Source: Candidatus Pantoea edessiphila (GTDB taxonomy: Bacteria > Pseudomonadota > Gammaproteobacteria > Enterobacterales > Enterobacteriaceae). Taken from it: DNA of 64,000 bases. The stretch covers positions 1-64,000 of the forward strand of contig NZ_PDKR01000004.1 of the NCBI RefSeq assembly GCF_002933345.1, read 5' to 3'. Of this stretch, positions 26,049 to 58,020 are shown piece after piece (position 1 is the stretch's first letter; each line of letters begins with the position of its first letter). Under the pieces are notes generated by a model. It searched no databases. It was not told where the DNA came from and worked only from the letters and a program-made list of their open reading frames with translations. Both the position numbers and the translations under genes were made by a program.

Positions 26049-27791
26049 GTGCTAAATTATAAAATTGAATTACGTCATCGTAAAATAGTTGTTAAAGATA
26101 ATTTGCCAATAGATCTACCTCCTCTAATAAAACGTCTTTATCTAAATCGTGGTCTCTGTGATGCAGAAAAATTAGAACGTAGTGCAAACAAATTATTATC
26201 ATTTAAGACATTACATAATATTGATAAAGCAGTAACAATAATATATAACATGTTGATAAATAAACGTAAAATTATAGTAGTAGGAGATTTTGACGCTGAT
26301 GGTGCAACTAGTACTGCATTAACAGTATTAGCCTTAAAAAGTATGGGCGGTAAGAATATACAATACTTGATACCCAACCGATTTGAAGATGGATACGGTT
26401 TAAGCACGAAGATAGTAAAACATTTACATATGATAGGTGCTGAAATGATTCTTACTGTAGACAATGGCATTTCATCTCATGAAGGTATCAGCTGTGCTAA
26501 AAAATATGGTATTCCAGTAATAATTACAGATCACCATCTTCCTAGTAATGATCTACCAGAGGCTGAAGCTATTATTAATCCTAATATTTCTAATATGTCT
26601 TTTGCTTTATCTTCTTTGGCAGGTGTAGGTGTTGCTTTTTATTTAATGGTTGCTTTAAGAACATATTTGCGTGAAAAAGGATGGTTTAACAAAATATGTA
26701 TTGAACCAAATTTAGCAAATCTATTAGATCTTGTTGCTTTAGGTACCATTGTTGATGTTGTACCTCTTGACATAAATAATCGAATTTTGGTATGGCAAGG
26801 ATTAAATAGAATTCGTGCCGGTATATGTAGACCTGGTATTATAGCTTTGTTAGAAATCGCTAATCGTCAATTAAAAGATTTATCAACAGATGATCTCAGT
26901 TATGTATTAGGACCTCGTCTTAATGCAGCAGGAAGATTAAATGATATGTCAAAAGGAGTTGCATTATTATTAACCCATGATTTGAACCATGCACGTATTT
27001 TAGCTAATGAATTAGATAGATTGAATCAATCTCGAAAAAAAATTGAACAAGTTATGCACAATGAAGCATTGAAATTATGTAATATATTACAGCAAAAAGA
27101 AAATAACTTACCTTTAGGTATAACCGTTTATCATCCTGAATGGCATCAAGGAGTAATTGGTATTGTAGCTTCACGTTTAAAAGAACGTTTTCATCGACCT
27201 GTAATCGCATTTGCACCCACAGGTATAGGAGATGGTATTTTAAAAGGTTCTGGTCGTTCTATTGAAAATTTACATTTAAGAAATATTCTTGAACATTTAA
27301 ATACAGTTAAGCCAAACTTAATTATAAAATTTGGTGGCCATGCTATGGCGGCTGGTTTATCTATTAAAGAAATACATTATAAAGAATTTAGTCAATATTT
27401 TTCTAATTTAGTTAAAGAATTATTTAAAAATGATATAATTTCAGATATTATATGGTCGGATGGATCGTTACAACCATCAGAGTTTTCTATTCAAACTGCA
27501 GATCTATTACGTGAGGCCGGACCTTGGGGAGTATCATTTCCTCAACCTACCTTTGATGGAGAGTTCGAATTAGTTAAACAACGTCTAATTAATAAAAGAC
27601 ATTTGCATGTTTTAGTTAAAGTTTTTGACAATGGTCCATTAGTTGATGGAGTTTTATTTAATGTAGATACCAATCATTGGCCAAATACTAAAATTAGTAA
27701 AGTTGGATTATTATATCGTCTTGATGTTAAAATATATCGTGGCAAACGTTTCGTTCAGTTAATAATAGAATATTTGTGGCCCTTAGATTAA
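26049..27791 (+). CDS. recJ: RecJ, single-strand 5'-3' exonuclease
   Basis: Degrades 5'-ended single strands in recombination, mismatch repair and gap repair. The 580-residue product (E. coli 577) has the DHH-family motifs VVGDFDADGATSTA, TVDNGISSHEG, ITDHHLPS (DHH) and LGTIVDVVPL, then the DHHA1 domain with KFGGHAMAAGLS. The start is GTG at 26049, chosen because LNYKIELRHR aligns with the E. coli N-terminus. In E. coli genetics, recombination in recD mutants depends on RecJ, which is relevant because recD is missing from this window. Confidence 0.96.
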   Translation: MLNYKIELRHRKIVVKDNLPIDLPPLIKRLYLNRGLCDAEKLERSANKLLSFKTLHNIDKAVTIIYNMLINKRKIIVVGDFDADGATSTALTVLALKSMGGKNIQYLIPNRFEDGYGLSTKIVKHLHMIGAEMILTVDNGISSHEGISCAKKYGIPVIITDHHLPSNDLPEAEAIINPNISNMSFALSSLAGVGVAFYLMVALRTYLREKGWFNKICIEPNLANLLDLVALGTIVDVVPLDINNRILVWQGLNRIRAGICRPGIIALLEIANRQLKDLSTDDLSYVLGPRLNAAGRLNDMSKGVALLLTHDLNHARILANELDRLNQSRKKIEQVMHNEALKLCNILQQKENNLPLGITVYHPEWHQGVIGIVASRLKERFHRPVIAFAPTGIGDGILKGSGRSIENLHLRNILEHLNTVKPNLIIKFGGHAMAAGLSIKEIHYKEFSQYFSNLVKELFKNDIISDIIWSDGSLQPSEFSIQTADLLREAGPWGVSFPQPTFDGEFELVKQRLINKRHLHVLVKVFDNGPLVDGVLFNVDTNHWPNTKISKVGLLYRLDVKIYRGKRFVQLIIEYLWPLD

Positions 27792-27903: not shown

Positions 27904-29002
27904 ATGATAGAAATAAATTTCATCAATAATCTTATTAATAATCTTAATCAACGCAATAGTAATCTTAGGAGGAGTTTTTGATTATATAAATAAAAAAGAT
28001 CGTTTTAAAGAAATAAGTGTTGAATTGGAGCAGTTAAATATATGGCATAATCACGAACATGCTAAATCTTTAGTGAAAGAACAATCTTGCCTAAAAATGA
28101 TTATTGAAGATCTTGACAAGATATTATTTAAATTAAAAGATATTGAAGGTTTATTCGAACTAGCGAAAAGCATAGAAGATGATTGTGTAAATAATGATAT
28201 TATAAAAGAACTTAACATAATAAAAGATGGTATAAAAAAATTAGAATTTAATCTTATGTTTTCTGGTGAAAATGACCAATCTGATTGTTATATTGATTTC
28301 CAAGCTGGTTCAGGTGGAATTGAATCCCAAGATTGGACCAATATGCTAATGCGTATGTACTTAAGGTGGCTAGAAAACAAAGGTTTTAATACTAAAATAA
28401 TTGAAGAATCGCCGGGGGAAATTAATGGAATTAAATCTTCCACGGTTCACGTATCTGGAAATTATGCTTTTGGATGGTTACGCACAGAATCTGGCATTCA
28501 CAGACTGGTACGCAAAAGTCCTTTTGATTCTAGTCATCGTAGGCATACTTCTTTTGGTTCAGTTTTTATATATCCTGAAATAAATAATTATATTAATATT
28601 AATATTAGCTTGTCAGATTTACGTATTGATGTTTATCGAGCATCAGGAGCTGGTGGTCAACATGTTAATCGTACAGAATCAGCTGTACGTATTACTCATA
28701 TTCCTACTGGTATTGTAACTCAATGTCAAAACAATAGATCTCAACATAGAAATAAAGAGCAAGCAATCAAGCAAATGAAATTAAAGTTATATCAAATTGA
28801 AATAAAAAAGAAAAATACTGAAAAGAAATTTTTAGAAAGTAATAAATCCTGTATAAGTTGGGGAAATCAAATTCGTTCATATATACTTGATCATTCTCTT
28901 ATTAAAGATTTAAGAACTGGTTTAGAAATACGTAATACCCAAGAGGTATTAGGCGGAAATTTAGATCCATTTGTTAAAAAGAGTTTAAAATTAGGTTTGT
29001 AA
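27904..29002 (+). CDS. prfB: Peptide chain release factor 2, with programmed +1 frameshift
   Basis: RF2 recognises UGA and UAA and releases the peptide. The first 25 codons from ATG 27904 run [19 protein letters not shown] to an in-frame TGA at 27979-27981; translation continues in the +1 frame from 27980 as [22 protein letters not shown]. With the shift the product has 365 residues, like E. coli RF2. Visible motifs include the peptidyl-transferase loop GGQ in [12 protein letters not shown] and the anticodon-like SPF in [15 protein letters not shown]. The E. coli neighbours recJ and lysS flank it here too. Confidence 0.97.
27967..27982 (+). promoter_or_regulatory. prfB programmed frameshift site
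   Basis: An internal Shine-Dalgarno AGGAGG (27967-27972) is followed by three bases and then TTT TGA T. E. coli uses AGGGGG, three bases, then CTT TGA C. The spacing is identical, but the slip codon is UUU, which can re-pair as UUU after moving one base. Low RF2 slows termination at the UGA and favours the shift, so RF2 controls its own synthesis. Confidence 0.93.
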
Positions 29003-35045: not shown

Positions 35046-38000
35046 ATGTTTTACGTATATCATTCAAATCAACTTGATGTTCTTAGAACGTTATTAAATG
35101 AAACTATTAAAAGCAATCCTATTAAAAACCCTTTTAAATCTGAAGTAATGCTTATACAAAATTTATATATGGCTAGATGGTTGAGAAAAGAAATAGCATT
35201 AAATTTTGATATTGCTGCAAACATTAAATTTATTATATTTACAGAATTTATATGGAGTATAATTAGTACTGTAATACCTGATATTCCAGTAAAAAAATTT
35301 TTTAATAAAAATGATGTCATTTGGATGATTATATGTAGAATGCCGTTCTTATTAAAGAAAAATGAATTTAGTTTTATTACAGATTACCTAGATGGTTGTA
35401 AAAATGAAACTAATCTATTTCAATTTAGTTTACGTATATCAAGTATATTTGAAAAATATCTAATTTACAGACCCAATTGGCTTAACATTTGGGAATGTAG
35501 TAAATTTGTTAGCAAACTTGGTGATGAACAATTATGGCAATCAGCCATTTGGAGAGATTTAATCTCTAACTATACGAAAAAATCAAAAAGATCTTTATAT
35601 CAATCTGATAATTTTTATTCTCTTTGTATAAAAAAAATAAAAAATACTAAAAATACATTACAATTTTTACCTCAACGTTTATTTATTTTTGATGTATCTG
35701 CATTTTCTCCCTATCACATGCAAATTTTAAATACAATAAGTGATTTTATTGATATTCATTGCTTTTTTAAAAACCCATGTTGTAATTATTGGGGAGATAT
35801 TCAAAATTATAAATTTTTGTCAAAAAAATCAAAAAACAAGCAATATTTTATTAATAAAAAAGATCAAAATTATTTTGATGATATATCAGAATATTTAAAA
35901 GAAACATATGAACAGCATATTAACAATCCTCTTTTGGTATCATGGGGAAAAATAGGTTGCGATAGCCTTTGTTTTCTGACTCAATTAGAACCTAACAATC
36001 ATATTGATGCTTTTGTTAATATAAAAAAAAATAATTTATTAAACTATATTCAAGATGATATCCTTAATTTAAAGAATAATTCTATTATAGGTTTAAATTA
36101 TAATGAATTAAGATGTAATAATAAAAAACAATGTATAGATACAAGTGACCAATCTATTTCTATTAATGTTTGTCACAATATTGCACGTGAAATTGAAGCA
36201 TTACAAGATTATTTATTAAAATTAATAAATTATGATTCTAGTCTTAAAATAGACGATATAATAGTTATGGCATCTGATATTGACGTATATATACCATTTA
36301 TTAAAGCAATATTCTCCAATACATCAGTTGATAGATATTTGCCTTTTACAATTTTAGATCGTCGTGCCATTAACGAACATCCAATAATTATTGTTTTTTT
36401 AAGATTATTATCTTTAGATAATAATTATGTTTTTGAAGATATTATGGCTATGTTAGACATAAAATCTTTATCACATCATTTTTCTATAGATGAAAACCAA
36501 TTAATACTATTACAAAATTTAATTAATAATGTAAATACCTATGAAAAATTGAATGAGTTAAAAAGAATATCTATGCATAAATATGATAAAAATTATCATA
36601 TTTTACTTAATGAGATTAAAGTAAACTTATTAAAATACATTAATAAAAATAAAAACTACTCACAAAAATTTTTGCCTCATAATATAACAACAAAAAAATT
36701 ATTAGAGATTTTATTAAGTAATTTAACCAATCTAATTTTCCAACTTAATAAATTAAATATAACATTATCAAAATGTTATTTCTTAAAAGATTGGTTATTT
36801 ATAGGTAAACAGTTAATTAATAATTTTTTTAGTATAACTTATGAATCTGAATCAATTTTATTGTTATTAGAAAATAATTGGGAAAGATTAATACAATCTG
36901 GAATAAAAATAATTTCTAAAAAAATTTCAATTAAATTATTGCGTGAGATTTTATATACTAATCTTAGTAATCAGCTCTTGGGTAAAGATTTCCTTAAAGG
37001 AAAAATTAATTTCTGCAATTTAATGCCTACACGTTCTCTCCCATTTAAAGTAATATGTTTATTAGGAATGAATAATGATAAATATCCACGTAGGTCAAAT
37101 ACAATTGAATTTAATTTAATGTATAAACAACCAAATAAAGGAGATTTTAATAATATCGAAGAAGACCGTTATTTATTTCTTGAAACTATAATTTCCGCTA
37201 AAAATACACTTTATATAAGTTATATTGGTTGGTCTATGCAAGATAGTACAGAATTGTATCCTTCTAATTTAATAACAGAGTTATTAGAATATATCGAACA
37301 AAACTTCTATCTAAAAGGAGATGAAAATATTGAAATAGATAAAAATAATAAAAATATTCAAAAACATTTAATGATATATCATACTAGAGCACCCTTTGCA
37401 CCAAATAATTTTAAATATAATTCAAAAACACAAAGTTTTGCTTATGAGTGGTTACCATCAGCACGGGGTACAGGTATTCCACAATCTAGTTTTATCAAAG
37501 CTATAGATGTACCTAAAATCAGAATTTTAAATATAAAGGAATTATTATATTTTTGGCGTCATCCCATACGTGCTTGGTTTAATAAAAGACTAGGTGTTCA
37601 TTTCTATATAAAGGAACATGTTTTATCAAAAAATAAATCATATCTCTGTAATAATTTAAAATATTATGAGATTAAATCGCAATTATTAAACGCATTGGTA
37701 GAAAATAATATTAATGCTATTCAACAGCTTTATATTCATAATAAAACAGTTGGTAATTTACCTCCTGGAGTTTTTTCAGAATTATTCTGGCAATCTCAGC
37801 AAGAAACAATGCAACAAATAGTATCAAAAATCTCCTGCAGTGATATCAAAAAAAGTAGAAATTTGGAAATTAATTTAAAAATTAACAACCTAACTTTAAT
37901 AGGTTCATTAAACCAAATACAAGAATATGGATTATTGCGTGGATATCCTGATGTACTTACCATCAGAGATGGATTGACATTTTGGCTGGAACATGTTGTA

Positions 38001-38417
38001 TATTGTGCAATGGGTGGTTCTGGTATTAGTCAAATATTTGGTCTTGATAAAAGCTATTGGTATTTCGATAATATATCTCAAACTAAAGCTATTGAATTTT
38101 TAAATCGTTATATTGCCGGTTATCATTACGGAATGAGTCAACCAATACCTTTATTGAATAAAAGTGCTAATGCTTGGTTAAAATATTGTTATGACAAAAA
38201 GGAAAATCAATTAATAACTGACAAAAATGTTCAAGCAAAAGCATATAATCGTTTGTTAACAGCTTGGAATGGTAAATATAAAATATCAAATGGAGAAAAC
38301 ATAGATCCTTATATGAAACGCTTATATCGTACTTTAGGTGATATAGAAATAGAACAAATAATTGAATCTACAAAGAGTTGGTATTTACCAGTACTTCAAG
38401 CACAAAAAGATATTTAA
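35046..38417 (+). CDS. recC: RecC, exonuclease V gamma subunit
   Basis: Scaffold subunit of RecBCD that splits the duplex and, in E. coli, scans for Chi. The full-length 1123-residue product (E. coli 1122) begins MFYVYHSNQLDVLRTLL and is open throughout. Typical blocks such as YMARWLRKEIALNFDIAAN near the start, the RSLPFKVICLLGMNNDKYPR segment and NPIRAW-type HPIRAWFNKRLGVHF are visible. RecC is itself a non-catalytic helicase/nuclease fold. It starts seven bases after thyA. The ptrA gene found between recC and recB in E. coli is deleted. Confidence 0.95.
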   Translation: MFYVYHSNQLDVLRTLLNETIKSNPIKNPFKSEVMLIQNLYMARWLRKEIALNFDIAANIKFIIFTEFIWSIISTVIPDIPVKKFFNKNDVIWMIICRMPFLLKKNEFSFITDYLDGCKNETNLFQFSLRISSIFEKYLIYRPNWLNIWECSKFVSKLGDEQLWQSAIWRDLISNYTKKSKRSLYQSDNFYSLCIKKIKNTKNTLQFLPQRLFIFDVSAFSPYHMQILNTISDFIDIHCFFKNPCCNYWGDIQNYKFLSKKSKNKQYFINKKDQNYFDDISEYLKETYEQHINNPLLVSWGKIGCDSLCFLTQLEPNNHIDAFVNIKKNNLLNYIQDDILNLKNNSIIGLNYNELRCNNKKQCIDTSDQSISINVCHNIAREIEALQDYLLKLINYDSSLKIDDIIVMASDIDVYIPFIKAIFSNTSVDRYLPFTILDRRAINEHPIIIVFLRLLSLDNNYVFEDIMAMLDIKSLSHHFSIDENQLILLQNLINNVNTYEKLNELKRISMHKYDKNYHILLNEIKVNLLKYINKNKNYSQKFLPHNITTKKLLEILLSNLTNLIFQLNKLNITLSKCYFLKDWLFIGKQLINNFFSITYESESILLLLENNWERLIQSGIKIISKKISIKLLREILYTNLSNQLLGKDFLKGKINFCNLMPTRSLPFKVICLLGMNNDKYPRRSNTIEFNLMYKQPNKGDFNNIEEDRYLFLETIISAKNTLYISYIGWSMQDSTELYPSNLITELLEYIEQNFYLKGDENIEIDKNNKNIQKHLMIYHTRAPFAPNNFKYNSKTQSFAYEWLPSARGTGIPQSSFIKAIDVPKIRILNIKELLYFWRHPIRAWFNKRLGVHFYIKEHVLSKNKSYLCNNLKYYEIKSQLLNALVENNINAIQQLYIHNKTVGNLPPGVFSELFWQSQQETMQQIVSKISCSDIKKSRNLEINLKINNLTLIGSLNQIQEYGLLRGYPDVLTIRDGLTFWLEHVVYCAMGGSGISQIFGLDKSYWYFDNISQTKAIEFLNRYIAGYHYGMSQPIPLLNKSANAWLKYCYDKKENQLITDKNVQAKAYNRLLTAWNGKYKISNGENIDPYMKRLYRTLGDIEIEQIIESTKSWYLPVLQAQKDI

Positions 38418-38494: not shown

Positions 38495-41400
38495 ATGAAT
38501 GAGTTAAATATGAAAATATTAAATCCTATAACACTTCCAATTAAAGGTAATATACTTATTGAAGCTTCAGCTGGAACAGGTAAAACTTTTACTATTAGCT
38601 TATTATATCTAAGATTATTGTTAGGCCTTAATAAAAAACATGAATATTATAGACCATTATCTGTTGAAGAAATTTTAGTAGTAACTTTTACAGAAATAGC
38701 TACAATTGAGTTACGTAAACGTATACGTAATGATATCCATCAATTAAGATTGAGTTGTATTCAAGGAAGAAGTTTTAATCCTATGCATCAATTATTGTTA
38801 GAGCAAATCGATGATAATAAACAAGCTATAAAAAGACTATTTTTTGCAGAAAAAAATATATACAACGCAGCTATATATACAATACACAGTTTTTGTAGAA
38901 AAGTTCTAAAATTTTTTGATTTTGAATCAAATACGTCATTTAGGAATAAAATATTATCAGATGAATATACATTGTTTAAAAAAATTACTCTGAATTTTTG
39001 GAATAATCTCTCTTGTTCTATATCTCTAGATGTAGCACGTATCATTTCAAATGAATGGAATAATGCGGAAGATCTATTATTTACTTTATATCCTTTATTT
39101 CGAAAAAAAAATGATATTATCAATTGTTTATCTTTTTTAGATAAAACTTTAGAATTAAAACACAAAAATAATTTAGATCAAATTAATTCTATAAAAAATA
39201 TATGGATAAATCATAATAATAATATATTAAAAATTCTAAATTCTTCTAAAATTAATAAAAGAATTTATAATAATAAAAATTTAAAAAATTGGGTTGATAA
39301 AATAACAGTATGGGCAAATAGTATAACTTTAGATTACACAATACCAAAAGATCTTCAAAGATTTAGACAATCTATAATTAATGAAAAAAATAAAGATAAT
39401 GATAAAATCATTGATTTTAGATTATTTAAAGAAATAGAAAGTTTTTTTATTAATCCTATATCACTAAGAGAAGATTTTATAAAAAAAGCTCTAGCTGAAA
39501 TTACTATTTCTATAAATAAAGAAAAACATTTACAAGGTTTATTAAGTTTCGATGATTTATTACATGAATTAGATAAAGCTTTACAAAGCTCTAAGGGTGA
39601 TTTATTAGCTCGTAATATAGGTACTTATTTTCCAGTATCTCTAATTGATGAATTTCAAGATACAGATTTAAAACAATATAGAATTTTCCAAAAAATTTAC
39701 ATCCAGCAAAAATTAAATCAATCATTAATAATTATTGGTGATCCAAAACAATCAATTTATTCGTTTCGCGGTGCAGATATATCTTCTTATATTAATATGC
39801 GTTGCGAAATTAGTGATATTTATACTTTAGATACAAATTGGCGTTCTTCATCAGAAATGATTGAGAGTGTAAATTGCTTATTTTCAAAAATAACCTTACC
39901 ATTCATGTCGCCACAAATTCCTTTTATACCAATTAAATCTGCTATTGATAATAAAAAAATAAAGTTTATTTTTAATGGAAATAAATATCCTTCATTGAAC
40001 ATTTGGATACATCCAGTCAATAATATTGATTGTATGGATTATGAATATGATATTGCAAAACAGTGTGCTGCTGATATAAGTAATCTATTATTAGCTAAAA
40101 ATAAAAAAAAAGCTTTTTTTTTAAAAAAAAATAATAAATTACATTTATTACAACCTTCAGATATTGCAGTATTAGTAAGAAATCGTAGAGAAGCTAATTT
40201 AATTCGTAATGCACTCAATTTATTTTCTGTATCATCAGTTTATTTATCTGAATTTGATAGCGTTTATAGCACTGTAGAAGCACGTGAATTTTTCTATCTA
40301 TTAAAAGCAATACAATCTCCAACACAAGAACAACTAATACGTACTGCCTTAGCAACCTCTATGTTTTCAATTGATTCAAAAACTATTGAATCATTATCAA
40401 ATAACAATTTGATTGTCTTAATTAAAAAGTTTTCACGATGGAAATTATTGTGGCAAAAATATGGTTTAATGCCAATGTTTCGTAATATTATATTAGAATA
40501 TAATATAGCAGAAAATATATTAGCTTCAGAGAATGGTAAACGTAGATTAACTGATTTAATGCATATTAGTGAATTATTACAAGCAGAATCTATGGTATTA
40601 ATTGGTCCAAATGATCTTTTAAATTTTTTTTTCGAACAAATTAACAAACCAAATAATCAGATTTCCAATCAGCAATTACGTTTAGAAGAAGATTGTAACT
40701 TTATAAAGATTATTACAATACATAAATCAAAAGGTTTACAATATCCTTTAACATGGTTACCTTTTGCTGTGAGTTTTATGGAACATGATAATAATATCTA
40801 TTGCAATAATAACAATGGTCTCTCTTTAAATACAAATGAAGATGTAAACGATATACAATCATTTAAAGAAAGAATGGCTGAAGATTTACGTCTTTTCTAT
40901 GTAGCAGTCACTAGATCTATTTATCACTGTAGCATTGGTATTGGAACTTTTATAAAAGGAGGATATAACACAAAAAAAAATACAAATGATTTATACAAAA
41001 CTGCACTTGGTTATTTATTAAAATGCAATAAATATACCAATATTAAACAATTAAAAGATTATATTAGCGAACTAAAATACATAAACATAAAAGCAATTGA
41101 TATTGATTTAAAACCCAATAAAAAATGGCAAGAAAAAAAAATCATTGACACTACTTTAAATAATCTTAAGTTAAATAGAATTTCGTCAGATCTTTGCCAA
41201 AGTAATATATATCCTGAACAAGAAAATGAAATTGGTAAATTTACTTTTTCATCTGACTTTGATGAAAATAATTTAATTAACTATTATGTAAAGAAAAACT
41301 CTTTAATAAAGGAAAAAAGTTCTTTAATAGTAACTAGTCATTTTCCAAATGATTTAAAATTTAACACTTTTATAATTTCTTTATTTAAGTCTATGAATTT

Positions 41401-42040
41401 AAATACAATACCTAAAAAATCATGGTTAGAATATCAATTAAATAGATGTGGATATTCTTTAGAACTATTATCTGATATCCATAAATGGATAATAATAATA
41501 CTTTGCAAACCACTTAATTCAGAAGGTTTAAGTCTTATCAATATGAAAGAAACAGATTATCTCAATGATTTTAAATTTTTTCTTATGATTAAAAATAATG
41601 CAGTTATATCAGGGTTAAATAGATTATTGAGTAATAAAGATAAATTATCAAAATATGAAAATAATATTAGCTTTGATAAAGAGCAAGGTATTATTCAAGG
41701 TTATATAGATTTAGTATTTATTTGGCATAATAAATACTATTTGCTCTATTACAGATTAGATTATTTGGGCAGCCATAACATCTGTTATACAGCTCAATCC
41801 ATAAAAAGCAAAATTTTTAACAGGAGTTTTAATTTTAAAAATCAATTATGTACTTTGGCATTTCATCGTTATCTTAAACATAGATTAAATGACTATAGTT
41901 ATGAAAAACATTTTGGTGGTGTGTTCTACTTGTTTTTAAAAGGATTAAGTGAAAATTTACTTAGTAATGGTATTATTAAAATATTTACAGATAAAAATTC
42001 AATCCAAAAATTGGATATATTAATTGGTAAAAATAAATAA
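38495..42040 (+). CDS. recB: RecB, exonuclease V beta subunit, helicase intact but nuclease site altered
   Basis: 3'-5' helicase and, in E. coli, the only nuclease of RecBCD. The 1181-residue product (E. coli 1180) keeps all SF1 motifs: EASAGTGKTFTI, LIDEFQDTD, IIGDPKQSIYSFRGAD, DTNWRSS, TIHKSKGLQYP and LRLFYVAVTRS. The C-terminal nuclease domain is present and alignable, but key residues changed: E. coli His956 (TFLHSLFE) is Ile961 (TFIISLFK), Asp1080 and Lys1082 (LLDYK) are Tyr1085 and Arg1087 (LLYYR). Asp1067 is kept as Asp1072 in GYIDLVF. The nuclease is probably dead. recD, expected directly downstream, is absent. Confidence 0.95.
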   Translation: MNELNMKILNPITLPIKGNILIEASAGTGKTFTISLLYLRLLLGLNKKHEYYRPLSVEEILVVTFTEIATIELRKRIRNDIHQLRLSCIQGRSFNPMHQLLLEQIDDNKQAIKRLFFAEKNIYNAAIYTIHSFCRKVLKFFDFESNTSFRNKILSDEYTLFKKITLNFWNNLSCSISLDVARIISNEWNNAEDLLFTLYPLFRKKNDIINCLSFLDKTLELKHKNNLDQINSIKNIWINHNNNILKILNSSKINKRIYNNKNLKNWVDKITVWANSITLDYTIPKDLQRFRQSIINEKNKDNDKIIDFRLFKEIESFFINPISLREDFIKKALAEITISINKEKHLQGLLSFDDLLHELDKALQSSKGDLLARNIGTYFPVSLIDEFQDTDLKQYRIFQKIYIQQKLNQSLIIIGDPKQSIYSFRGADISSYINMRCEISDIYTLDTNWRSSSEMIESVNCLFSKITLPFMSPQIPFIPIKSAIDNKKIKFIFNGNKYPSLNIWIHPVNNIDCMDYEYDIAKQCAADISNLLLAKNKKKAFFLKKNNKLHLLQPSDIAVLVRNRREANLIRNALNLFSVSSVYLSEFDSVYSTVEAREFFYLLKAIQSPTQEQLIRTALATSMFSIDSKTIESLSNNNLIVLIKKFSRWKLLWQKYGLMPMFRNIILEYNIAENILASENGKRRLTDLMHISELLQAESMVLIGPNDLLNFFFEQINKPNNQISNQQLRLEEDCNFIKIITIHKSKGLQYPLTWLPFAVSFMEHDNNIYCNNNNGLSLNTNEDVNDIQSFKERMAEDLRLFYVAVTRSIYHCSIGIGTFIKGGYNTKKNTNDLYKTALGYLLKCNKYTNIKQLKDYISELKYINIKAIDIDLKPNKKWQEKKIIDTTLNNLKLNRISSDLCQSNIYPEQENEIGKFTFSSDFDENNLINYYVKKNSLIKEKSSLIVTSHFPNDLKFNTFIISLFKSMNLNTIPKKSWLEYQLNRCGYSLELLSDIHKWIIIILCKPLNSEGLSLINMKETDYLNDFKFFLMIKNNAVISGLNRLLSNKDKLSKYENNISFDKEQGIIQGYIDLVFIWHNKYYLLYYRLDYLGSHNICYTAQSIKSKIFNRSFNFKNQLCTLAFHRYLKHRLNDYSYEKHFGGVFYLFLKGLSENLLSNGIIKIFTDKNSIQKLDILIGKNK

Positions 42041-42097
42041 ATATTTTATTATTTTATAATACATGATTATTTCTATCTAAAGTATAAAATTGAATAT

Positions 42098-48531: not shown

Positions 48532-49044
48532 GATATTAATTATGTTATATTTTAGCATAATAATTTTTATAGATATCTTTAGTAGATCTCATTAAATTAA
48601 TATAATCAATTAAATAATTGATTATTTAAAAGCAATTTAATTAATAAAAAAAATATATATATTTAATGGTAAATTATTTTTAATATTAAATTTAATGCCA
48701 AAATTAAGAAATAAAAATATAATAATTTATTAGGAATTAATTGTTTAATTACTGTCCTTCCTTATTAGAATTATAATTACAACCAAAACGAGTGTAATTA
48801 TTTTTTTCAAAAATCCATGTTTTATACAATTAATAGTTATTTTATATCCCTGTAAGATCATAGTGAACTATCCTTTCCTTGTTAAATATTAATGAAAAGA
48901 TCTTTATTTTAAAACACTTTAATTATAAATAATTTAGTTATTTAATATATTTAAGATTTATTTAAATATTAATTTATAGTTTGTTAATTTTATTTAAATA
49001 GATAATATAATTCCATTTACTGAAATAGTGAAAATTTTAATGTG
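48532..49044. other. eno/cysJ intergenic region
   Basis: About 510 AT-rich bases. In E. coli queE, queD and others lie in this interval; no convincing remnant was read. It should contain the cysJIH promoter, but no clear CysB site or promoter stands out. One short minus-strand frame with a ribosome site is listed separately. Confidence 0.5.
48745..48861 (-). CDS. Possible 38-residue single-helix membrane peptide
   Basis: A short frame MILQGYKITINCIKHGFLKK followed by a hydrophobic run ITLVLVVIIILI and RKDSN. It has a good ribosome site (AAGGA nine bases before ATG). The helix followed by RKD faintly recalls Hok-type toxins, but the conserved C-terminal half of that family is absent. In such AT-rich DNA hydrophobic Ile/Leu/Lys frames arise by chance. 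I do not recognise it and would not call it a gene without expression or conservation. Confidence 0.15.
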   Translation of the reverse strand: MILQGYKITINCIKHGFLKKIITLVLVVIIILIRKDSN

Positions 49045-50850
49045 ATGAATAATCATAACTCATTTTCAGATCTTGCCTTTCCAATTACTTTAGAACAATT
49101 TAATACATTACAATTAGTTATAAAGGATTTTTCAGAAAATCAGTTATTATGGCTTTCAGGTTATCTTTGGGGTTTAGTAAATAATCAAAAAATCACTAAC
49201 AAAGTTAATATATCTAAAAACAAAAAAGAACCTGTGATAACACTTATATCATCATCTCAGACAGGCAATGCTAGACGTGCATCAGAGTGGCTTAGAGATG
49301 AGCTAAATTCGATTCAATTAAATGTAAATTTAATTCACGCAAGTGATTATACTTATAAAAAAATTAATAAAGAAAAGATATTGTTAATTATAACATCTAC
49401 TCAAGGCGAAGGTGAGCCTCCAGAAGAATCAGCTGCTTTATATAATTTCTTGATGTCAAAAAAAGCCCCAAAAATGAAAGAAACTGTTTTTGCAGTATTT
49501 GGTCTAGGAGATACTTCTTATGAGTTTTTTAGTAAAGCTGGAAAAGATATTGATAATAGACTAGCAGAATTAGGTGCAAAAAGATTAATAGACAGAGTTG
49601 ATGCTGATGTTGAATATAAAAATAAACTAAAAGTTTGGTGTAGTTTATTAACAAAACATCTTAAAACTCATATAAAAAATAATTTATTTGAACAAGTAGA
49701 AACAAATATAATAAAAGAATCTAATAAAAATTTTAATATTAATTATAACAGAAAAAATCCTTTCAATGCATCTTGTTTAGTTAATCAAAAAATTACTGGT
49801 AGAAAATCAGATAAAGATATACGTCATATTGAAATTGACATAAGTAATTCACAAATAATTTATAATCCTGGTGATGCAATTGGAATATGGTATAAAAATG
49901 ATGATAGTTTAATTAATGAAATTTTAAAATTAGTTAAATTAAAAGGGGATGAAAAAGTTAAAATCCATGATAAGTTTATTCCAATCACATGTGCATTAAA
50001 AAACCAGTTTGACTTAACCAGAAATAACAATAAAACAATTGAAAAATATGCTCTTTTATCTAAAAATAAAAACCTTTTATCAATGATAAATGATAGATGT
50101 AAAATGCAAAAATACGCAAATTTATATCCAATTGTTGATATGATTCGTTTATCACCTACTAGATTAACTGCTGAAAAATTAATTAGCATATTACGTCCCT
50201 TGACGCCTAGACTTTATTCTATTTCTTCTGCACAATCTGAAAATGAAAATGAAGTGCATATTACAGTTGGTATAATTAGCTTTAATATTGAAAATTATTG
50301 TCGTGGTGGAGGTGCATCTACTTGGTTATCTAATCTTAGAGAAGAAGAAAATATAAGTATTTTTATCGAAAATAACAATAATTTTCGTTTACCCGTAGAT
50401 AAAAAATTACCAATAATTATGATAGGTACTGGAACTGGTATTGCTCCATTTCGCTCATTTATGCAACAGCGTGATTACGATAGTTCTTCCGGAAAAAATT
50501 GGTTGTTTTTTGGTAATCGTCATTTTACAGAAGATTTTTTATATCAAATAGAATGGCAAGATTATGTAAAAAGAGGACTTTTAAATAAAATTAATTTAGC
50601 ATGGTCACGTGATCAATCTGAAAAAGTTTATATTCAAGATAAAATTCGTGCTAACGGAGTAGATATATGGTGTTGGATTGAAGAAGGTGCACATATTTAT
50701 ATTTGTGGTGATGCTAATAAAATGGCAAAAGATGTTGAAGCAGCCTTGTTAGAAGTTATTTCTAAACAAGGTCAAATGAATAAAGAAAAGGCTGAAGATT
50801 TTTTAAATGAATTACGTATTGAATACCGCTACCAAAGAGACATTTACTAA
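49045..50850 (+). CDS. cysJ: Sulfite reductase flavoprotein (alpha) subunit
   Basis: Carries electrons from NADPH through FAD and FMN to CysI. About 601 residues (E. coli 599): N-terminal flavodoxin domain ([28 protein letters not shown]), FAD domain ([17 protein letters not shown]) and NADPH domain ([32 protein letters not shown]), ending RYQRDIY as in E. coli. I use ATG 49045; a GTG one codon upstream is possible. Its stop overlaps the cysI start by one base, so cysJ and cysI are translationally coupled. Confidence 0.95.
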
Positions 50851-52565
50851 TGACTGAAAAAAACCAGAAAAGTCCTTTTGTTGTTAAGGGAAATTTAGAA
50901 GATGCAGAACGTATAAAATATCAAAGCAATTACTTACGTGGTACTATTTTACAAGATCTTGATAATGAATTAACTGGTAGTTTTACAGGAGATAATTTTT
51001 CATTGATTCGTTTTCATGGCATGTATCAACAAGATAATAGAGATATTAGAACTGAACGTATTAAACAGAAATTAGAACCACTACATTCTATAATGTTACG
51101 TTGTCGATTACCCGGAGGAGTTATTACAACACAGCAATGGTTGGATATCGATAAGTTTGCTACTGCTAAAACTATTTACGGTAGCATTCGTTTAACGAAT
51201 CGTCAAACATTTCAATTTCATGGTATTCTTAAAAAAAACATTAAACTTACGCATAAAATGTTACATCAAATAGGTCTCGATTCATTAGCTACTGCTAATG
51301 ATGTAAATCGCAATGTTCTCTGTACTTCAAATCCTTACGAATCAATATTACATCAAAAAGTTTATAATTTAGCAAAAAAACTTTCCGAGCATTTATTACC
51401 ACGCACTAAAGCTTATGCAGAAATTTGGTGGGATGATCATAAAATTGTAGAGAAAGAAGAAGAACCCATATTAGGTAAAACTTATCTACCCCGCAAATTT
51501 AAAATCACAATAGTGATTCCTCCTAATAATGATGTTGATTTACATGCAAATGATCTCAACTTTGTAGCTATTATAAAGAATAAGGAATTAATTGGATTTA
51601 ATTTATTAATAGGAGGAGGTTTATCTATAGAACATAATAATCATGCAACTTATCCTCGCACTGCAACTGATTTTGGTTATATTGAAATTGAAAAAATGAT
51701 TGATGTCGCTACTGCGGTCATTACTATACAACGTGATTGGGGTAATCGCACTGATCGTAAAAATGCTAGAACTAAATATACGTTAGAAAGAGTAGGAATT
51801 GATCATTTCAAAAAGGAAATAGAAATTCGTGCTGATATGAAATTTAAACCTAGTTATCCATATAAATTAACTACTCGCGGTGATCGTATTGGATGGATTA
51901 AAGGTATAGATGAAAAATGGCATTTAACGTTATTTATTGAAAATGGACGGATAATTAATCATCCTAAATATCAGTTAAAAAAAGGTATTGCTGAAATTGC
52001 AAAAAATCATCGAGGTAATTTTCGTTTAACTGCTAATCAAAATTTAATTATAACCAGTGTTCCAGAAAATAAAAAATTACATATCGAATCTATAGCAATG
52101 AAATATGGATTAATAAATAAAATATCTGCTCAAAGAAAAAATTCTATGGCTTGTGTATCCTTTCCTACATGTCCATTAGCAATGGCAGAAGCTGAAAGAT
52201 TTCTTCCGAAATTCATTACAAAAATTGAAAATATCATGAAGAACTATGGAGTAAATAATAGATATATAGTATTACGTGTTACTGGCTGCCCTAATGGTTG
52301 TGGCCGTGCTATGTTAGCGGAAATTGGTCTAATTGGGAAAGCAATTGGTCGTTATAACCTCCATATTGGAGGTAATCGAATAGGTACAAGAATTGCACGT
52401 ATGTACCGTGAAAATATTAAAGAAGATGAGATTATTTCTAATATTTCTAAGCTAATAGAATGCTGGGCTAAAGAAGGTTATAAAGAAGAGAATTTTGGTG
52501 ATTTTGTAATTAGAATTGGAATCGTAAAACCGGTATTGGATCCAGCACGAGATTTTTGGAAATAA
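50850..52565 (+). CDS. cysI: Sulfite reductase hemoprotein (beta) subunit
   Basis: Reduces sulfite to sulfide with six electrons at a siroheme coupled to a 4Fe-4S cluster. The 571-residue product (E. coli 570) keeps the four cluster cysteines in [18 protein letters not shown] and [14 protein letters not shown], the siroheme-contacting arginines around [15 protein letters not shown] and [12 protein letters not shown], and the [11 protein letters not shown] region. Siroheme would come from CysG encoded in this window. Its end lies two bases before the cysH start. Confidence 0.96.
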
Positions 52566-52567
52566 AA

Positions 52568-53302
52568 ATGATTAAATTAGATTTTTCATTATTCAACAAA
52601 ACATCACAAATAGAACGTAAAGAAATATTAAACTCTATTAATTTGAAATTAAATAAACTAATAGCAGAAGATCGTATTATATGGGCATTAAAAAACTTAC
52701 CAAGTGTACATGTATTATCTTCTAGCTTTGGTATTCAATCTGCAGTTTCATTACATTTAATTACAAAGTTACAACCTAATATCCCAATAATTTTGATAGA
52801 TACCGGATATCTTTTTCCAGAAACTTATCTTTTTATTGATGAATTAGTTAATAAATTTAATTTAAATATACATGTTTTTAGATCTAAAATATCGTCTGCT
52901 TGGCAAGAAGCACGTTATGGAAAACTATGGCAACACGGTATAAAAGGAATTATTAAATATAATAAGATAAATAAAATCAATCCAATGAATTATGCTATAA
53001 AATCATTAGGTATAAAAACTTGGTTTGCTGGATTAAGGCGTGTTCAATCAAATAGTAGAGCTAATTTATCCGTATTGGAATTTAAAAGAGGTATCTTCAA
53101 GGTATTACCCATTATAGATTGGGATAATCGTCAAGTTCATAGATACTTGCAAATAAATAACTTAAAATATCATCCCTTGCATGATAAAGGATATTTGTCA
53201 TTAGGAGATGTACATACAACAAGAATTTGGGAAGCAGGAATGACAGAAGAGGAAACTCGTTTTTTTGGAATAAAACGTGAGTGTGGAATACACGAAGATT
53301 AA
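52568..53302 (+). CDS. cysH: PAPS reductase
   Basis: Thioredoxin-dependent reduction of phosphoadenylyl sulfate to sulfite. The 244-residue product has the E. coli length. Motifs: [14 protein letters not shown] (PP-loop), [29 protein letters not shown] and the C-terminal KRECGIHE with the single catalytic cysteine of the PAPS-type enzyme; the extra cysteine pairs of APS reductases are absent, in line with a CysC kinase being encoded. I start at ATG 52568 ([10 protein letters not shown]), two bases after cysI; the frame is open four codons further up inside cysI. Confidence 0.95.
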
Positions 53303-53632
53303 TTTTTATTGTTGATCAATTAATATTTTCAAAGTTGTCATTATAATAATTAATAGTATTTGTAATCTATTGATTTGATATTGTTTACTTATATTAAGTT
53401 GTAAAATAAAATTTTTGTAAAAAATAAACGCACATAAATAACATTCAAGTTCTTCTATAGATCTATCTCAATATCAATTTTAATTAAAATAGAAGCAATA
53501 ATAACTTTAGATATAGTTTATAACTTATATACTTATATTGTTTAGTAACTACTCATTCTAATTCATAATTTAATTTCAATAAATACAAAGAGCTATAATC
53601 AAAAATTATACATTAATAATACTAAGGTTCTA
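53303..53632. other. cysH/cysG intergenic region
   Basis: About 330 AT-rich bases separating the cysJIH and cysG-cysDNC runs on the same strand. No open frame, remnant or RNA gene was recognised. It should carry the cysG promoter. No clear terminator hairpin after cysH was seen, so read-through is possible. Confidence 0.5.
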
Positions 53633-55045
53633 GTGAATTATTTACCTCTTTTTGCTGATTTAAACAAACGTCCAGTGTTGGTTGTTGGCGGCGGAATAGT
53701 CGCTACACGAAAAATTAAACAATTAAATCGAGTTGGTGCATGCGTGAAAATTGTTGCCAATGAAATTTGTAATGAATTACAAAAAATAATAAAAATATAT
53801 AAAATTGAATGGATAGCTACTCAATTTGATCCAGCACAACTGAATGAAGTATTTTTAGTGATAGCAGCAACTAATGATAGTGTCCTTAATGAGAAAATTT
53901 CCAGAGAAGCAAATATTAAATATAAATTAGTTAATGTAGTAGATGATAAAATAAATTGTAATTTTATATTACCTTCAATTATTAATCGTTCACCTATATT
54001 AATAGCAATATCCTCAAGTGCAACTGCTCCTATATTAACAAGAATATTACGTGAAAAATTAGAGGCAATATTACCAAAACATATAAGTGAAATGGCATTA
54101 ATAGCTGGTCAATGGCGTAATAAAGTTAAGAAACATTTTATTTATTTATCTGATCGTCGTCATTTTTGGGAACGTATTTTCAATGGACCATTTGTTAATC
54201 GAATAGCAATAGGTGATTTAAACAAGGCGAAAATTATTCTAAAACAACAATTAAAAATTAAATCAAATCGTCAAGGAAAAATTATTTTAGTTGGTGCAGG
54301 GCCTGGAGATAGTAGTCTGTTAACTTTACGTGCTTTGCAAGTAATACAGCTAGCTGATGTAGTTTTATATGATAATCTGGTAAGCAATGAAGTATTAGAA
54401 TTAGTGCGTAGAGATGCTGATATTATATGTGTTGGTAAAAGTTTTGGTTCTCATGCTTTTTCACAGCAAGAAACCAATGCAATGCTAGTTAAATTAGCAT
54501 TAGAAGGTAAATATGTAGTTAGATTAAAAGGCGGGGACCCATTTATTTTTGGACGAGGAGGTGAAGAACTTCAAGCAGCAAAAAAAGCTGGAATTTCATT
54601 TCAAATTGTTCCCGGAGTAACATCAGCTATAGGTGCTACTGCATATGCTGGTATTCCATTAACTCATCGTGATTATGCACATAGTGTTGTATTCGTTACA
54701 GGTCATGGTCATTTAAAAAAAAATCTTGTTAATTGTAAACCAATTAGTAAAGGTCAAACATTAGTTATTTATATGGGACTAATAAAGACTCCAGAAATTA
54801 GTAAAATTTTAATAGATCAAGGTTATATTAAATCTACTCCGGTAGCGGTTATCAGCAGAGGGACAAGATATGATCAAATAGTATTAACGGGTACTCTAGG
54901 ACAAATCGAAAAATTAGCAGCATCTGTAGCTACTCCAGCATTATTAATTATTGGAGAAGTGGTTAATCTCCACAGGCAACTAGCTTGGTTTAATGGTGCG
55001 GTTCAATATAAACCTCGCAAATCTTCTTTTATTAATTTAGCCTGA
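53633..55045 (+). CDS. cysG: Siroheme synthase (multifunctional CysG)
   Basis: Makes siroheme from uroporphyrinogen III. The 470-residue product (E. coli 457) joins an N-terminal dehydrogenase/ferrochelatase domain (LVVGGGIVATRK NAD loop, VVDDKINCNFILPSIINRSP) to a C-terminal SUMT methyltransferase domain (VGAGPGDSSLLTLRAL, RLKGGDPFIFGRGGEEL, YAGIPLTHRDYA). The start is GTG 53633 with AAGG upstream. In E. coli cysG sits with nirBD; here, as I recall for some other enterics, it leads the cysDNC genes and serves CysI. Confidence 0.95.
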   Translation: MNYLPLFADLNKRPVLVVGGGIVATRKIKQLNRVGACVKIVANEICNELQKIIKIYKIEWIATQFDPAQLNEVFLVIAATNDSVLNEKISREANIKYKLVNVVDDKINCNFILPSIINRSPILIAISSSATAPILTRILREKLEAILPKHISEMALIAGQWRNKVKKHFIYLSDRRHFWERIFNGPFVNRIAIGDLNKAKIILKQQLKIKSNRQGKIILVGAGPGDSSLLTLRALQVIQLADVVLYDNLVSNEVLELVRRDADIICVGKSFGSHAFSQQETNAMLVKLALEGKYVVRLKGGDPFIFGRGGEELQAAKKAGISFQIVPGVTSAIGATAYAGIPLTHRDYAHSVVFVTGHGHLKKNLVNCKPISKGQTLVIYMGLIKTPEISKILIDQGYIKSTPVAVISRGTRYDQIVLTGTLGQIEKLAASVATPALLIIGEVVNLHRQLAWFNGAVQYKPRKSSFINLA

Positions 55046-55054
55046 GAAAACACC

Positions 55055-55963
55055 ATGAATCAAAAAAAAATTAATCACATATATCAATTAGAAGCAGAAA
55101 GCATTTATATAATGAGAGAAGTTATAGCAGAATTTGATAATCCAGTCATGATGTATTCTATAGGTAAAGATTCTTCAGTAATGTTGCATTTAGCTCAAAA
55201 AGCTTTTTACCCAAGTAGTATTCCTTTTCCTTTATTGCATATAGATACTGGTTGGAAATTTAGTGAAATGTACGAATTTCGTGATCACATCATTAATGCA
55301 ATAGGTGCTGAGTTATTAATATTTCGTAATTTAAAAGGTATAGAAATGGGCATTAATCCTTTCGTTCATGATAGTACAAAATATACTAATATTATGAAAA
55401 CAGATGCATTGAAGCAAGCTTTAAATAAATACAAGTTTGATGCAGCATTTGGAGGAGCACGTCGTGATGAAGAAAGATCTAGAGCAAAAGAACGTATTTA
55501 TTCTTTTAGAGATCGATTTCATCGTTGGGATCCAAAAAATCAACGACCTGAAATATGGAATAATTATAATGGTCAAATTAATAAAGGAGAAAACATTCGT
55601 GTATTTCCTTTATCTAATTGGACGGAATTAGATATCTGGCAATACATTTTTTTAGAGAAAATTAAAATTGTACCACTGTATTTTGCTGCAATAAGACCTG
55701 TTTTGAAAAGAAATAATATGATTATCGTAATCAATGACAATCGTATCAATTTGAAAGACAATGAATTAATAGAAAAACGTATGGTACGTTTTCGTACATT
55801 GGGTTGTTGGCCTCTAACTGGAGCTATTGAATCAAAAGCACAAACAATTTCAGATATAATCAAAGAAATGTTATTGTTTAAAACAAGTGAACGTAAAAAT
55901 CGTTTAATTGATATAGATCAAAGTCATTCAATGGAATATAAAAAAAGGCAGGGCTATTTTTAG
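55055..55963 (+). CDS. cysD: Sulfate adenylyltransferase small subunit
   Basis: With the GTPase CysN it activates sulfate to adenylyl sulfate. The 302-residue product has the E. coli length. Motifs: [14 protein letters not shown] (PP-loop), [41 protein letters not shown] and [14 protein letters not shown]. It starts nine bases after cysG, so cysG-cysD-cysN-cysC appears to be one operon. Confidence 0.97.
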
Positions 55964-55978
55964 GAAATAAATATAAGC

Positions 55979-57424
55979 ATGAATACTATAATTAAAGATA
56001 CAAACCAAATGATTAAAAAAGATGACATTGAAGTCTGGTTACTTGCTCAACAAAATAAAGATCTTTTACGTTTCCTTACTTGTGGGAATGTAGATGATGG
56101 TAAAAGTACTCTTATTGGTCGTTTATTACATGATGTTTGTTATATATATGAAGACCAATTATCATCGCTTTATAATGATAGCAAACGTTATAGAATTCAA
56201 GGCGAAAAACTTAATTTAGCATTACTTGTAGATGGCTTACAAGCAGAACGTGAACAAGGAATTACTATTGATGTAGCATATAGATATTTTTCTACTGAAA
56301 AAAGAAAATTTATTATTGCTGATACTCCAGGACATGACCAGTATACACGTAATATGGTAACTGGTGCATCTACTTGCCAATTAGCAATTATATTATTAGA
56401 TGCACGTAAAGGAATAGTAAATCAAACTCGCCGTCATAGTTTTATATCTAGTTTGCTAAATATAAAACAGTTAATAATAGCTATTAATAAAATGGATTTA
56501 ATCAATTATGATGCTAATATATTTAATAATATAAAACAAGATTACATTAATTTTATTACAAAACTACCGATAAATCCAAATGTTTATTTTGTTCCAATAT
56601 CTGCCCTTAGAGGTGATAATATAGTTTCTAAAAGTCAAAAAATGTCTTGGTATCATGGATCTACTATATTAAAAATATTAGAAAACATTGATTTAGATGT
56701 ATTTATAAATAACAAACCTATGCGTTTTCCAGTACAGTATGTAAATCGTTTTAATATAGATTTTCGTGGTTATTCTGGTACCATAGCTTCTGGTACAATT
56801 AGGGTAGGACAAAATGTAAAAGTGCTTCCATCAAATATACAATCCAATATAAAACGTATTGTAACTTTTGATGGTGATTTAATAGAAGCTAATGCAGGTC
56901 AAGCAATTACCTTAATTCTAAATGATGAACTTGATATTAGTAGAGGAGATTTAATTGTAGATATTAACTCTGATCTTAATTTAACAAAATCTGTAATTGC
57001 TAATGTTGTATGGATGTCGGATAAGCCTATGAAAAAGAATCAAAGTTATTTTATAAAAATGGCTAGTAAAAAAATCATTGGCAATATCGAAAATATAATA
57101 CATCAAATTAATATAAGTTCATTAGAAACATATAAGGTTGATAATTTATCTCTGAATAGTATTGGTTTAGTAAAAATAAACTTTGAAGAACCAATGGTTG
57201 TTGATAAATACTATAATAATCCAGTTACTGGAGGATTAATTTTTATAGATCGTTTTAGTAATGCTACAGTAGGTGCAGGTATGATTAATAAATATAAATT
57301 AGACTTAGAACATACAGGATGTTATGACAACAATTACAATAATTTTGAATTGGAATTAAATTCTTTAATTCGTTGCTATTTTCCACACTGGAAAGCACGT
57401 AATTTACTAGATAAAAAACAATAA
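55979..57424 (+). CDS. cysN: Sulfate adenylyltransferase GTPase subunit
   Basis: EF-Tu-like GTPase that drives ATP sulfurylase activity of CysD. The 481-residue product (E. coli 475) has the G motifs [28 protein letters not shown] and AINKMDL and beta-barrel domains II and III after about residue 240. AGGAAA precedes ATG. Its last base overlaps the cysC ATG, implying coupled translation. No fused kinase domain is present; CysC is separate. Confidence 0.96.
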
Positions 57425-58020
57425 TGCGAAAATATAAAAATATACTTTGGCATCAACATACTATTACACGTGAATTGAGAGAAAAGAAAAATGGGCACAA
57501 GGGTTTAGTGTTATGGTTTACTGGGTTATCTGGGTCAGGAAAATCTACTATTGCATGTTTTTTAGAGAAAAAATTATATCAAATTGGTTGTAAAACTTAC
57601 TTATTAGATGGTGATAACTTAAGACACGGATTATGTAGTGATCTTAGTTTTAGTAATTATGATAGAAAAGAGAATTTGCGCAGAGTTGGTGAAGTGGCAA
57701 AATTAATGGTAGATGCTGGATTATTAGTTATTGCTGCCTTTATTTCTCCCCTTCGTAAGGATCGTAAAATGGTAAGAAATTTTTTTAATAAAGATCAATT
57801 TATTGAAGTTTTTATTAATACTCCTTTATCTGTTTGTGAATCTCGAGATCCTAAGGGATTATATAAAGCAGCACGTTCTGGTAATTTAATTAATTTTACT
57901 GGTATTGGTAGTAGTTATGAAATCCCAGAAAACCCAGAAATTAAACTAGATGGTAATCAAACTATTAGTACGTTGACAATTGATTTAGTAAATTTACTTA
58001 AAGATCGTAATATTATTTAA
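57424..58020 (+). CDS. cysC: Adenylylsulfate kinase
   Basis: Phosphorylates APS to PAPS, the substrate of CysH. The 198-residue product (E. coli 201) shows the P-loop [40 protein letters not shown] and [14 protein letters not shown], where E. coli has the phosphorylated serine. Ends the cysG-cysDNC run. Together with cysJIH the window encodes every enzyme from sulfate to sulfide; uptake genes are not in view. Confidence 0.96.

Follow-up and report, generated by a model that had tools for sequence, protein, structure and literature searches.

Why would a cell keep RecB, the helicase-nuclease subunit of exonuclease V, once its nuclease active site has changed? This question is raised by recB of Candidatus Pantoea edessiphila, encoded in a stretch of 64,000 nucleotides (bases 1-64000 of one contig, NZ_PDKR01000004.1; hereafter the window) with a G+C content of 26%, from a genome of 835,639 bases in 12 contigs. 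The species belongs to a genus that includes symbionts of Edessa stink bugs (PMC7728854; here and below, statements on published work follow partial texts of the cited papers). The first-pass annotation of the window had proposed an unwinding-only RecBC, maintained by selection without its nuclease, whose DNA ends would be processed by RecJ. As detailed below, comparison with relatives makes it quite likely that the enzyme is an unwinding-only RecBC which followed the loss of RecD, and which would be a natural equivalent of the Escherichia coli recB1080 recD mutant.

RecB of the window has an intact helicase and a degenerate nuclease site

The recB open reading frame starts with ATG and is undamaged over 1181 codons, as originally reported. 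The protein matched the RecB model TIGR00609 at full length (residues 9-1177) with 881 bits (cut-off, 696). It also matched the stricter enterobacterial model NF008128, at 1193.8 bits and thus below the cut-off of 1697, and PF00580 at 154.6 bits. The superfamily 1 (SF1) helicase signatures, annotated as intact, were indeed present in the window's RecB and in those of five relatives from the same genus; the names that we give to these motifs are presumed assignments. The parts of the gene that matter here are as follows.

38495..42040, + strand: recB, 1181 amino acids; intact SF1 helicase and a nuclease domain with a degenerate active site
38495..41113, + strand: RecB helicase region, window residues 1-873; motifs in 6/6 genus members
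41342..42004, + strand: RecB nuclease domain, E. coli residues 945-1165, window residues 950-1170; open, predicted to be folded, active site degenerate
41375..41377, + strand: Ile961 (codon ATT) at E. coli His956, by alignment
41567..41569, + strand: Asp1025 (codon GAT) at E. coli Glu1020, by alignment
41708..41710, + strand: Asp1072 (codon GAT) at E. coli Asp1067, kept, by alignment
41747..41749, + strand: Tyr1085 (codon TAT) in place of the metal-binding Asp1080 of E. coli, by alignment
41753..41755, + strand: Arg1087 (codon AGA) at E. coli Lys1082, by alignment

As the reference we used RecB of E. coli K-12, in which residues 956, 1020, 1067, 1080, and 1082 are H, E, D, D, and K, the residues expected of an exonuclease V. 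The window's RecB lacks this set: it carries H956I, E1020D, D1080Y, and K1082R, and only Asp1067 is unchanged. Alignment with orthologues, in which all five positions were mapped, thus confirmed the four positions named in the first-pass annotation (His956 to Ile961, Asp1080 to Tyr1085, Lys1082 to Arg1087, and Asp1067 retained as Asp1072) and revealed no shared substitute residues. That list was incomplete, as the change of Glu1020 to Asp1025 had gone unreported. Replacing Asp1080 alone had been noted there as abolishing the nuclease in E. coli. Two further changes, Q1110K and Y1114C, affect near-invariant nuclease positions. When positions with at least 98% conservation were defined on 59 other RecB proteins of the family plus E. 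coli, the window's protein was changed at 1 of 53 helicase positions versus 9 of 25 nuclease-domain positions (Fisher p of approximately 9e-5). A search of the same genome with PF12705 found no second nuclease of this fold, with a model that may not catch all such nucleases.

The nuclease is changed or lost in all six genomes of the genus

The genus set consisted of six genomes: G000 (the window's species), G001, G002, G003, G004, and G005. RecB was found in all of them, and in all of them its nuclease is changed or lost. Residues 1067, 1080, and 1082 are D/Y/R in G000, D/Y/K in G001, and D/Y/K in G002, while residues 956 and 1020 are I and D, N and N, and I and D, respectively. Because D1080Y is common to three genomes, we rejected chance or an error in a single assembly as its source. 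In G005 the residues are H/D/K: this protein has D1067H, H956Y, and E1020D and keeps D1080 and K1082. The four members that bear the domain (G000, G001, G002, and G005) have all lost H956, changed E1020, and acquired G952N.

In the remaining two genomes, the RecB frame stops at E. coli residue 873 (G003) or 870 (G004), which is the boundary between helicase and nuclease domains; the RecB match contains six stops in G003 and one in G004. The 660 bases from the stop to argA in G003 hold a nuclease-domain remnant in two reading frames (tblastn, E as low as 7e-9 versus G002). In the approximately 230 bases between the recB stop and argA of G004, tblastn gave no nuclease-domain match. All six members keep 52 of the 53 helicase positions conserved at the above threshold, versus changes at 9/25 (G000), 6/25 (G001), 7/25 (G002), and 6/25 (G005) of the corresponding nuclease positions (Fisher p, 0.00009 to 0.004).

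In a tree built from RecC and the RecB helicase, G005 branched outside the five remaining members (support, 100) and G003 paired with G004 (support, 100); support was weak (33 and 38) for the branching order among G000, G001, and G002. Given the placement of G005, D1080Y and D1067H probably arose independently. The two truncations, judged by this tree, lie within one branch. In terms of sequence, the nuclease has thus been changed or lost by three routes within the genus, namely, D1080Y, D1067H, and truncation.

RecB nuclease residues are conserved in the rest of the family and in other groups

Our family sample comprised 119 genomes. RecB was matched in 115, in one of them (G094) solely through a UvrD-like match. 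Among the 114 other genomes with a match, RecB was examined in 61 and 53 were left out; G107, with a short frame in translation table 11, was kept out of the table, and of the 60 proteins aligned, that of G121 gave no domain readable within a single open frame, leaving 59. In these 59 nuclease domains, H956, D1067, K1082, Q1110, and Y1114 were kept without exception; at residue 1080, 57 domains had D and 2 had E, and at residue 1020, 58 had E and 1 had D. Genomes of no more than 1.6 Mb contributed 33 of the 59 domains, all of which keep H956, D1067, and K1082, and genome reduction alone is therefore not the cause of the loss. All five residues were also kept in 78/78 readable domains of named loci from many other groups (80 loci; L080 and L134 were unreadable).

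Two RecB proteins of the sample deserve a separate mention. That of G057 (L051) has E1020D, Y1081F, and DFKFN in place of DYKSN, and is the sole member of the table outside the genus changed at E1020 or Y1081; the RecD match of this genome contains two TAA. The RecB of G107 (L065, 298-3798), from a very small genome, is open throughout solely when TGA is translated as Trp, and under code 4 it keeps D1067, D1080, and K1082 as judged by eye.

RecD is absent from the genus

No genome of the genus gave a match to RecD (TIGR01447; 0/6, with E. coli positive as the control), a subunit that exonuclease V requires. Tblastn found no ptrA or recD match at the recC-recB-argA locus of any of the six, all of which have this gene order versus recC-ptrA-recB-recD-argA in E. 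coli. The loss of RecD had been missed in the first-pass annotation. In the window, the locus and the proposed partner nuclease are located as follows.

35046..38417, + strand: recC, 1123 amino acids, full length, the partner subunit; no ptrA between recC and recB
42041..42097, no strand: recB-argA junction, 57 bp, the site of recD in E. coli, absent here (tblastn, gene order)
26049..27791, + strand: recJ, 5'-3' single-strand exonuclease with DHH and GGH motifs; proposed 5'-strand trimmer

RecD was matched in 112 of the 119 genomes of the family sample, in 107 above the cut-off, and RecB occurs without RecD in only three: the window's genome, G088, and G121. The RecB of G121 (L067, 265-3840; genome of 756 kb) has two in-frame TGA codons, both where relatives have Trp. 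A reading of TGA as Trp in G121 was not supported, as code-4 frames also lengthen the control region of G088.

RecA, RecC, and RecJ were each found in 6/6 genus genomes. RecC is full length in five and split over contigs in G005, and RecJ, whose presence in the window had been correctly noted, carries the DHH and GGH motifs throughout. The C-terminal domain of exonuclease I (ExoI) was likewise found in 6/6. RecF, RecO, and RecR were each found in 0/6, although RecA is kept. The genus thus encodes RecBC, RecA, and RecJ without RecD, the set expected of an E. coli-like RecBC enzyme lacking RecD.

We also inspected 12 RecC residues that we take to be those recognizing Chi, with one position of this list doubtful. 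On that assumed list, 3 to 4 of 12 are kept in G000 to G004 and 9 to 11 of 12 in eight relatives; G100 keeps 7, G018 keeps 5, and three tiny genomes keep 3, 6, and 6. Of the 18 loci surveyed, 5 gave no RecC frame. Since the RecD-bearing G018 and G100 and the three tiny genomes lose these residues too, their loss is an ambiguous sign of RecD loss. The Chi sequence GCTGGTGG has one copy in the window.

The nuclease domain is relaxed and still constrained in three species

Unconstrained pairwise ratios of nonsynonymous to synonymous rates (dN/dS, or omega) were of little use, as the synonymous distance (dS) of the nuclease domain was saturated (5.5 to 14 among G000 to G002). Instead, we fitted omega with one synonymous rate common to both domains. 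In the three pairs among G000 to G002, omega was 0.072 to 0.106 for the helicase, a sign of strong purifying selection, and 0.116 to 0.192 for the nuclease domain, absolute values that are rough because dS is near or past saturation. The nuclease/helicase ratio was 1.61 to 1.96, and twice the log-likelihood difference (2dlnL) versus equal omega was 15.7 to 34.0. Control ratios from 24 random pairs of 352 eligible had a mean of 1.06 (standard deviation, 0.14; maximum, 1.28); 8 of the 24 reached the upper rate bound of 30, and we therefore relied on ratios and not on absolute omega. Protein distances pointed in the same direction: 0.460 to 0.505 for the nuclease domain and 0.338 to 0.348 for the helicase in the three pairs, with control nuclease distances averaging 0.341 (standard deviation, 0.034; maximum, 0.439; 157 pairs with a helicase distance of 0.30 to 0.35).

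Neutrality of the nuclease domain was rejected in the same three pairs (2dlnL, 105.7 to 153.3). In neutral simulations at 0.25 substitutions per site per lineage, well below the helicase dS of 1.6 to 2.1 per pair, at least 3 stops arose in 1000/1000 runs; the nuclease domains of G000, G001, and G002 contain none. Judged by these rates, the domain appears relaxed yet kept in G000 to G002, and it is gone in G003 and G004. Because it is still constrained in the former, we regard it as a retained pseudo-nuclease and not mere debris. The earlier view that selection keeps RecB without its nuclease stands for the helicase and needs the qualification that the nuclease domain is itself under constraint.

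A structure model of the window's nuclease region was built with 26 relatives; 37 of the 80 named loci had been picked, and 11 were dropped after failing a non-catalytic motif pattern, although these 11 also keep all five nuclease residues. The mean predicted local distance difference test score (pLDDT) was 81.7, with residues 1-34, a linker, below 50. The nine best structural matches were all RecB chains of RecBCD (Z scores of 23.4 to 27.8 over 248 to 263 residues). The C-terminal nuclease fold is thus predicted to be kept.

A model for nuclease decay after RecD loss

Work on E. coli provides the framework. In the absence of RecD, the RecBC enzyme shows no nuclease activity even if its active site is wild type; it loads RecA constitutively, and the 5' strand is trimmed by RecJ and ExoVII (PMC5592934). 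The RecB1080 and RecB1067 enzymes have no nuclease and do not load RecA; without RecD they regain RecA loading and remain nuclease deficient, and the strains are viable (PMC3375238). The nuclease domain is involved in RecA loading (PMC2828478) and acts at long range on the binding and melting of DNA ends (PMC13101046).

In our model, RecD would have been lost in the ancestor of the symbiont genus, as suggested by recC-recB-argA without recD in 6/6 genomes, before the active site decayed. RecBC lacking RecD would unwind DNA ends without cutting them, leaving the RecB nuclease site unneeded; the site could decay because the E. coli enzyme in this state has no nuclease whatever the site. The outcomes of such decay would be D1080Y in three species, the window's among them, D1067H in a sister lineage, and loss of the domain in two further species. 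The remaining enzyme would be an ATP-driven RecBC that unwinds DNA ends and has no nuclease activity. RecJ would trim the 5' strand, and RecA would be loaded constitutively by RecBC through the retained pseudo-nuclease domain, as in E. coli recB1080 recD. By analogy with E. coli, the loss of RecD was probably the cause of the nuclease decay. The first-pass proposal therefore stands in its observed parts (helicase kept, site changed, RecJ present), with trimming by RecJ better worded as something we would expect.

Three other accounts of the changed site were weighed against this model. If the whole of recB were decaying by drift in a shrinking genome, with the nuclease site struck first by chance, the domain-less relatives, the 26% G+C of the window, and the genome of 836 kb would be readily understood. 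Constraint on the helicase (omega of 0.07 to 0.11 in three pairs, 52/53 near-invariant positions kept in each genus member), together with a RecC that is full length in five genomes and RecA in six, largely refutes this account, and we reject it as highly improbable. Just as little credit is due to a nuclease whose activity persists through replacement residues close to the original site, such as Asp1025, Asp1072, Asp1089, and Arg1087. Asp1072 and an acidic residue at 1020 do remain in a fold predicted to be intact. No substitute is common to G000, G001, and G002, where residue 1020 is D, N, and D, residue 1084 is D, N, and D, and Tyr occupies residue 1080 throughout; G000 has K at residue 1110 and C at residue 1114, and RecD, without which E. 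coli RecBC has no nuclease (PMC5592934), is missing. We rejected a migrated active site on the grounds that nothing is shared. An unlikely, though more serious, alternative reverses the order: catalytic residues would have gone first under generic relaxed selection on the nuclease, owing for example to a scarcity of foreign DNA in the niche, with RecD lost in parallel or later. As RecD is absent in all six, the genus itself cannot give the order; the loss of H956, the change of E1020, and G952N in the four domain-bearing members may predate their split; and the other two genomes without RecD (G088 and G121) keep most or all of the site. Against this order, the 33 readable domains from genomes of no more than 1.6 Mb keep H956, D1067, and K1082, and all 33 but G088 come with a RecD match (in G054 and G106 below the cut-off). 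The basal species G005, without RecD, also still has Asp1080.

A different question is why the domain persists in G000 to G002. Tentatively, and at slightly less than an even chance, we propose that the genus forms a series of steps in which RecD was lost, catalytic residues changed successively, and the domain disappeared in two species. The dead domain would be selected for a noncatalytic job, either to load RecA or to control the melting of DNA ends allosterically, and the minimal set would be the RecB helicase, RecC, RecJ, and RecA without RecFOR. A narrower version, to which we give somewhat less weight, is that the domain survives only as a structural or allosteric part acting in DNA binding and base-pair melting. 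This would fit its long-range effects in E. coli (PMC13101046) and the fact that G003 and G004 manage without both the domain and RecFOR. It sits poorly with the part that the domain takes in RecA loading (PMC2828478) and with RecA loading by the recB1080 recD enzyme (PMC3375238). In G003 and G004, RecA must be loaded in another way, because neither the nuclease domain nor RecFOR is present.

Several observations weigh against our model of decay after RecD loss. G088, without RecD, keeps H956, E1020, D1067, and K1082, with D1080E as its sole change, which would be an earlier stage than that of the window's species. In G121, the residues are still H, E, D, D, and K as judged by eye, in a protein with two in-frame TGA; since these two retain most or all of the site, the loss of RecD appears to permit nuclease decay and not to force it quickly. 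G115 has D1080E despite a RecD match, and the association of RecD loss with nuclease decay rests on few independent events. Within the genus, pairs with G005 gave ratios of 1.13 to 1.24, with no significant relaxation (2dlnL, 1.4 to 3.8), and the nuclease branch of G005 is shorter than its helicase branch (0.46 versus 0.84). Together with the retention of Asp1080 and Lys1082, these data suggest that the nuclease domain of G005 may still do something. The saturation of dS belongs here as well, although the comparison between domains is firmer than the absolute values. Finally, an E. coli enzyme lacking the nuclease domain could not rescue recombination in recB cells (PMC2828478), which makes the state of G003 and G004 hard to explain, and the enzyme of Pseudomonas syringae cannot do without RecD (PMC5959072), so that the behavior of E. 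coli need not transfer.

If the model is correct, nature has tested in this genus which of the activities of RecBCD are required by a cell: RecD appears to be dispensable, as do, by extension, the nuclease and Chi control, while the unwinding of ends by RecBC is kept. With a dead retained domain in three species, another catalytic change in one, and no domain in two, it would offer ready separation-of-function proteins for the noncutting roles of the RecB nuclease domain. The idea that RecD loss frees the nuclease to decay also becomes testable.

Other features of the window

RecG and MutS are also encoded in the window. The gene polA (1003-1893) encodes 296 amino acids only, and its match to DNA polymerase I is confined to the 5'-3' exonuclease portion. 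The layout of prfB (27904-29002) is that of a programmed +1 frameshift: from the ATG at 27904, an in-frame TGA is reached at codon 26 (27979-27981), preceded by AGGAGG and TTT, and the match to RF2 continues in the downstream frame from 28025. A sulfate assimilation run at 49042-58020 is retained (cysJ, cysI, cysH, cysG, cysD, cysN, and an adenylyl-sulfate kinase gene).

Comparison with known systems

Parts of this system have precedents, in the recD loss of Moranella and the addA truncation of Wolbachia. For natural catalytic decay of the RecB nuclease we found none: no report appeared among the matches listed, in literature of partial coverage. The closest counterpart is the E. coli recB1080 recD laboratory mutant, which shares with the window's species the replacement of RecB Asp1080, the absence of RecD, and the presence of RecC, RecA, RecJ, and ExoI. 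Unlike in that mutant, the state described here is natural and fixed, RecFOR was not found in the six genomes, more active-site residues are changed, and two relatives in the genus have lost the whole domain.

Candidatus Moranella endobia resembles the genus in having lost RecD while keeping RecABC and RecJ: recABCG and recJ are kept there without recD, and its authors proposed a RecBC helicase acting with RecJ (PMC3620526). In the addA gene of isopod Wolbachia, a stop removes the nuclease domain and the rest is kept, another case of an endosymbiont helicase-nuclease subunit without its nuclease domain. Unlike here, that enzyme is AddAB and not RecBC, and truncation alone, without a series of catalytic changes, is described in the available text (PMC4224334). 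The proteins of G003 and G004 come near the RecB(delta-Nuc) constructs of E. coli and P. syringae, from which the domain was removed (PMC13101046), and their end point is also close to a RecB construct without the C-terminal 165 residues (PMC2828478). Unlike the proteins of G003 and G004, the RecB(delta-Nuc) constructs are laboratory-made and were tested with RecD present.

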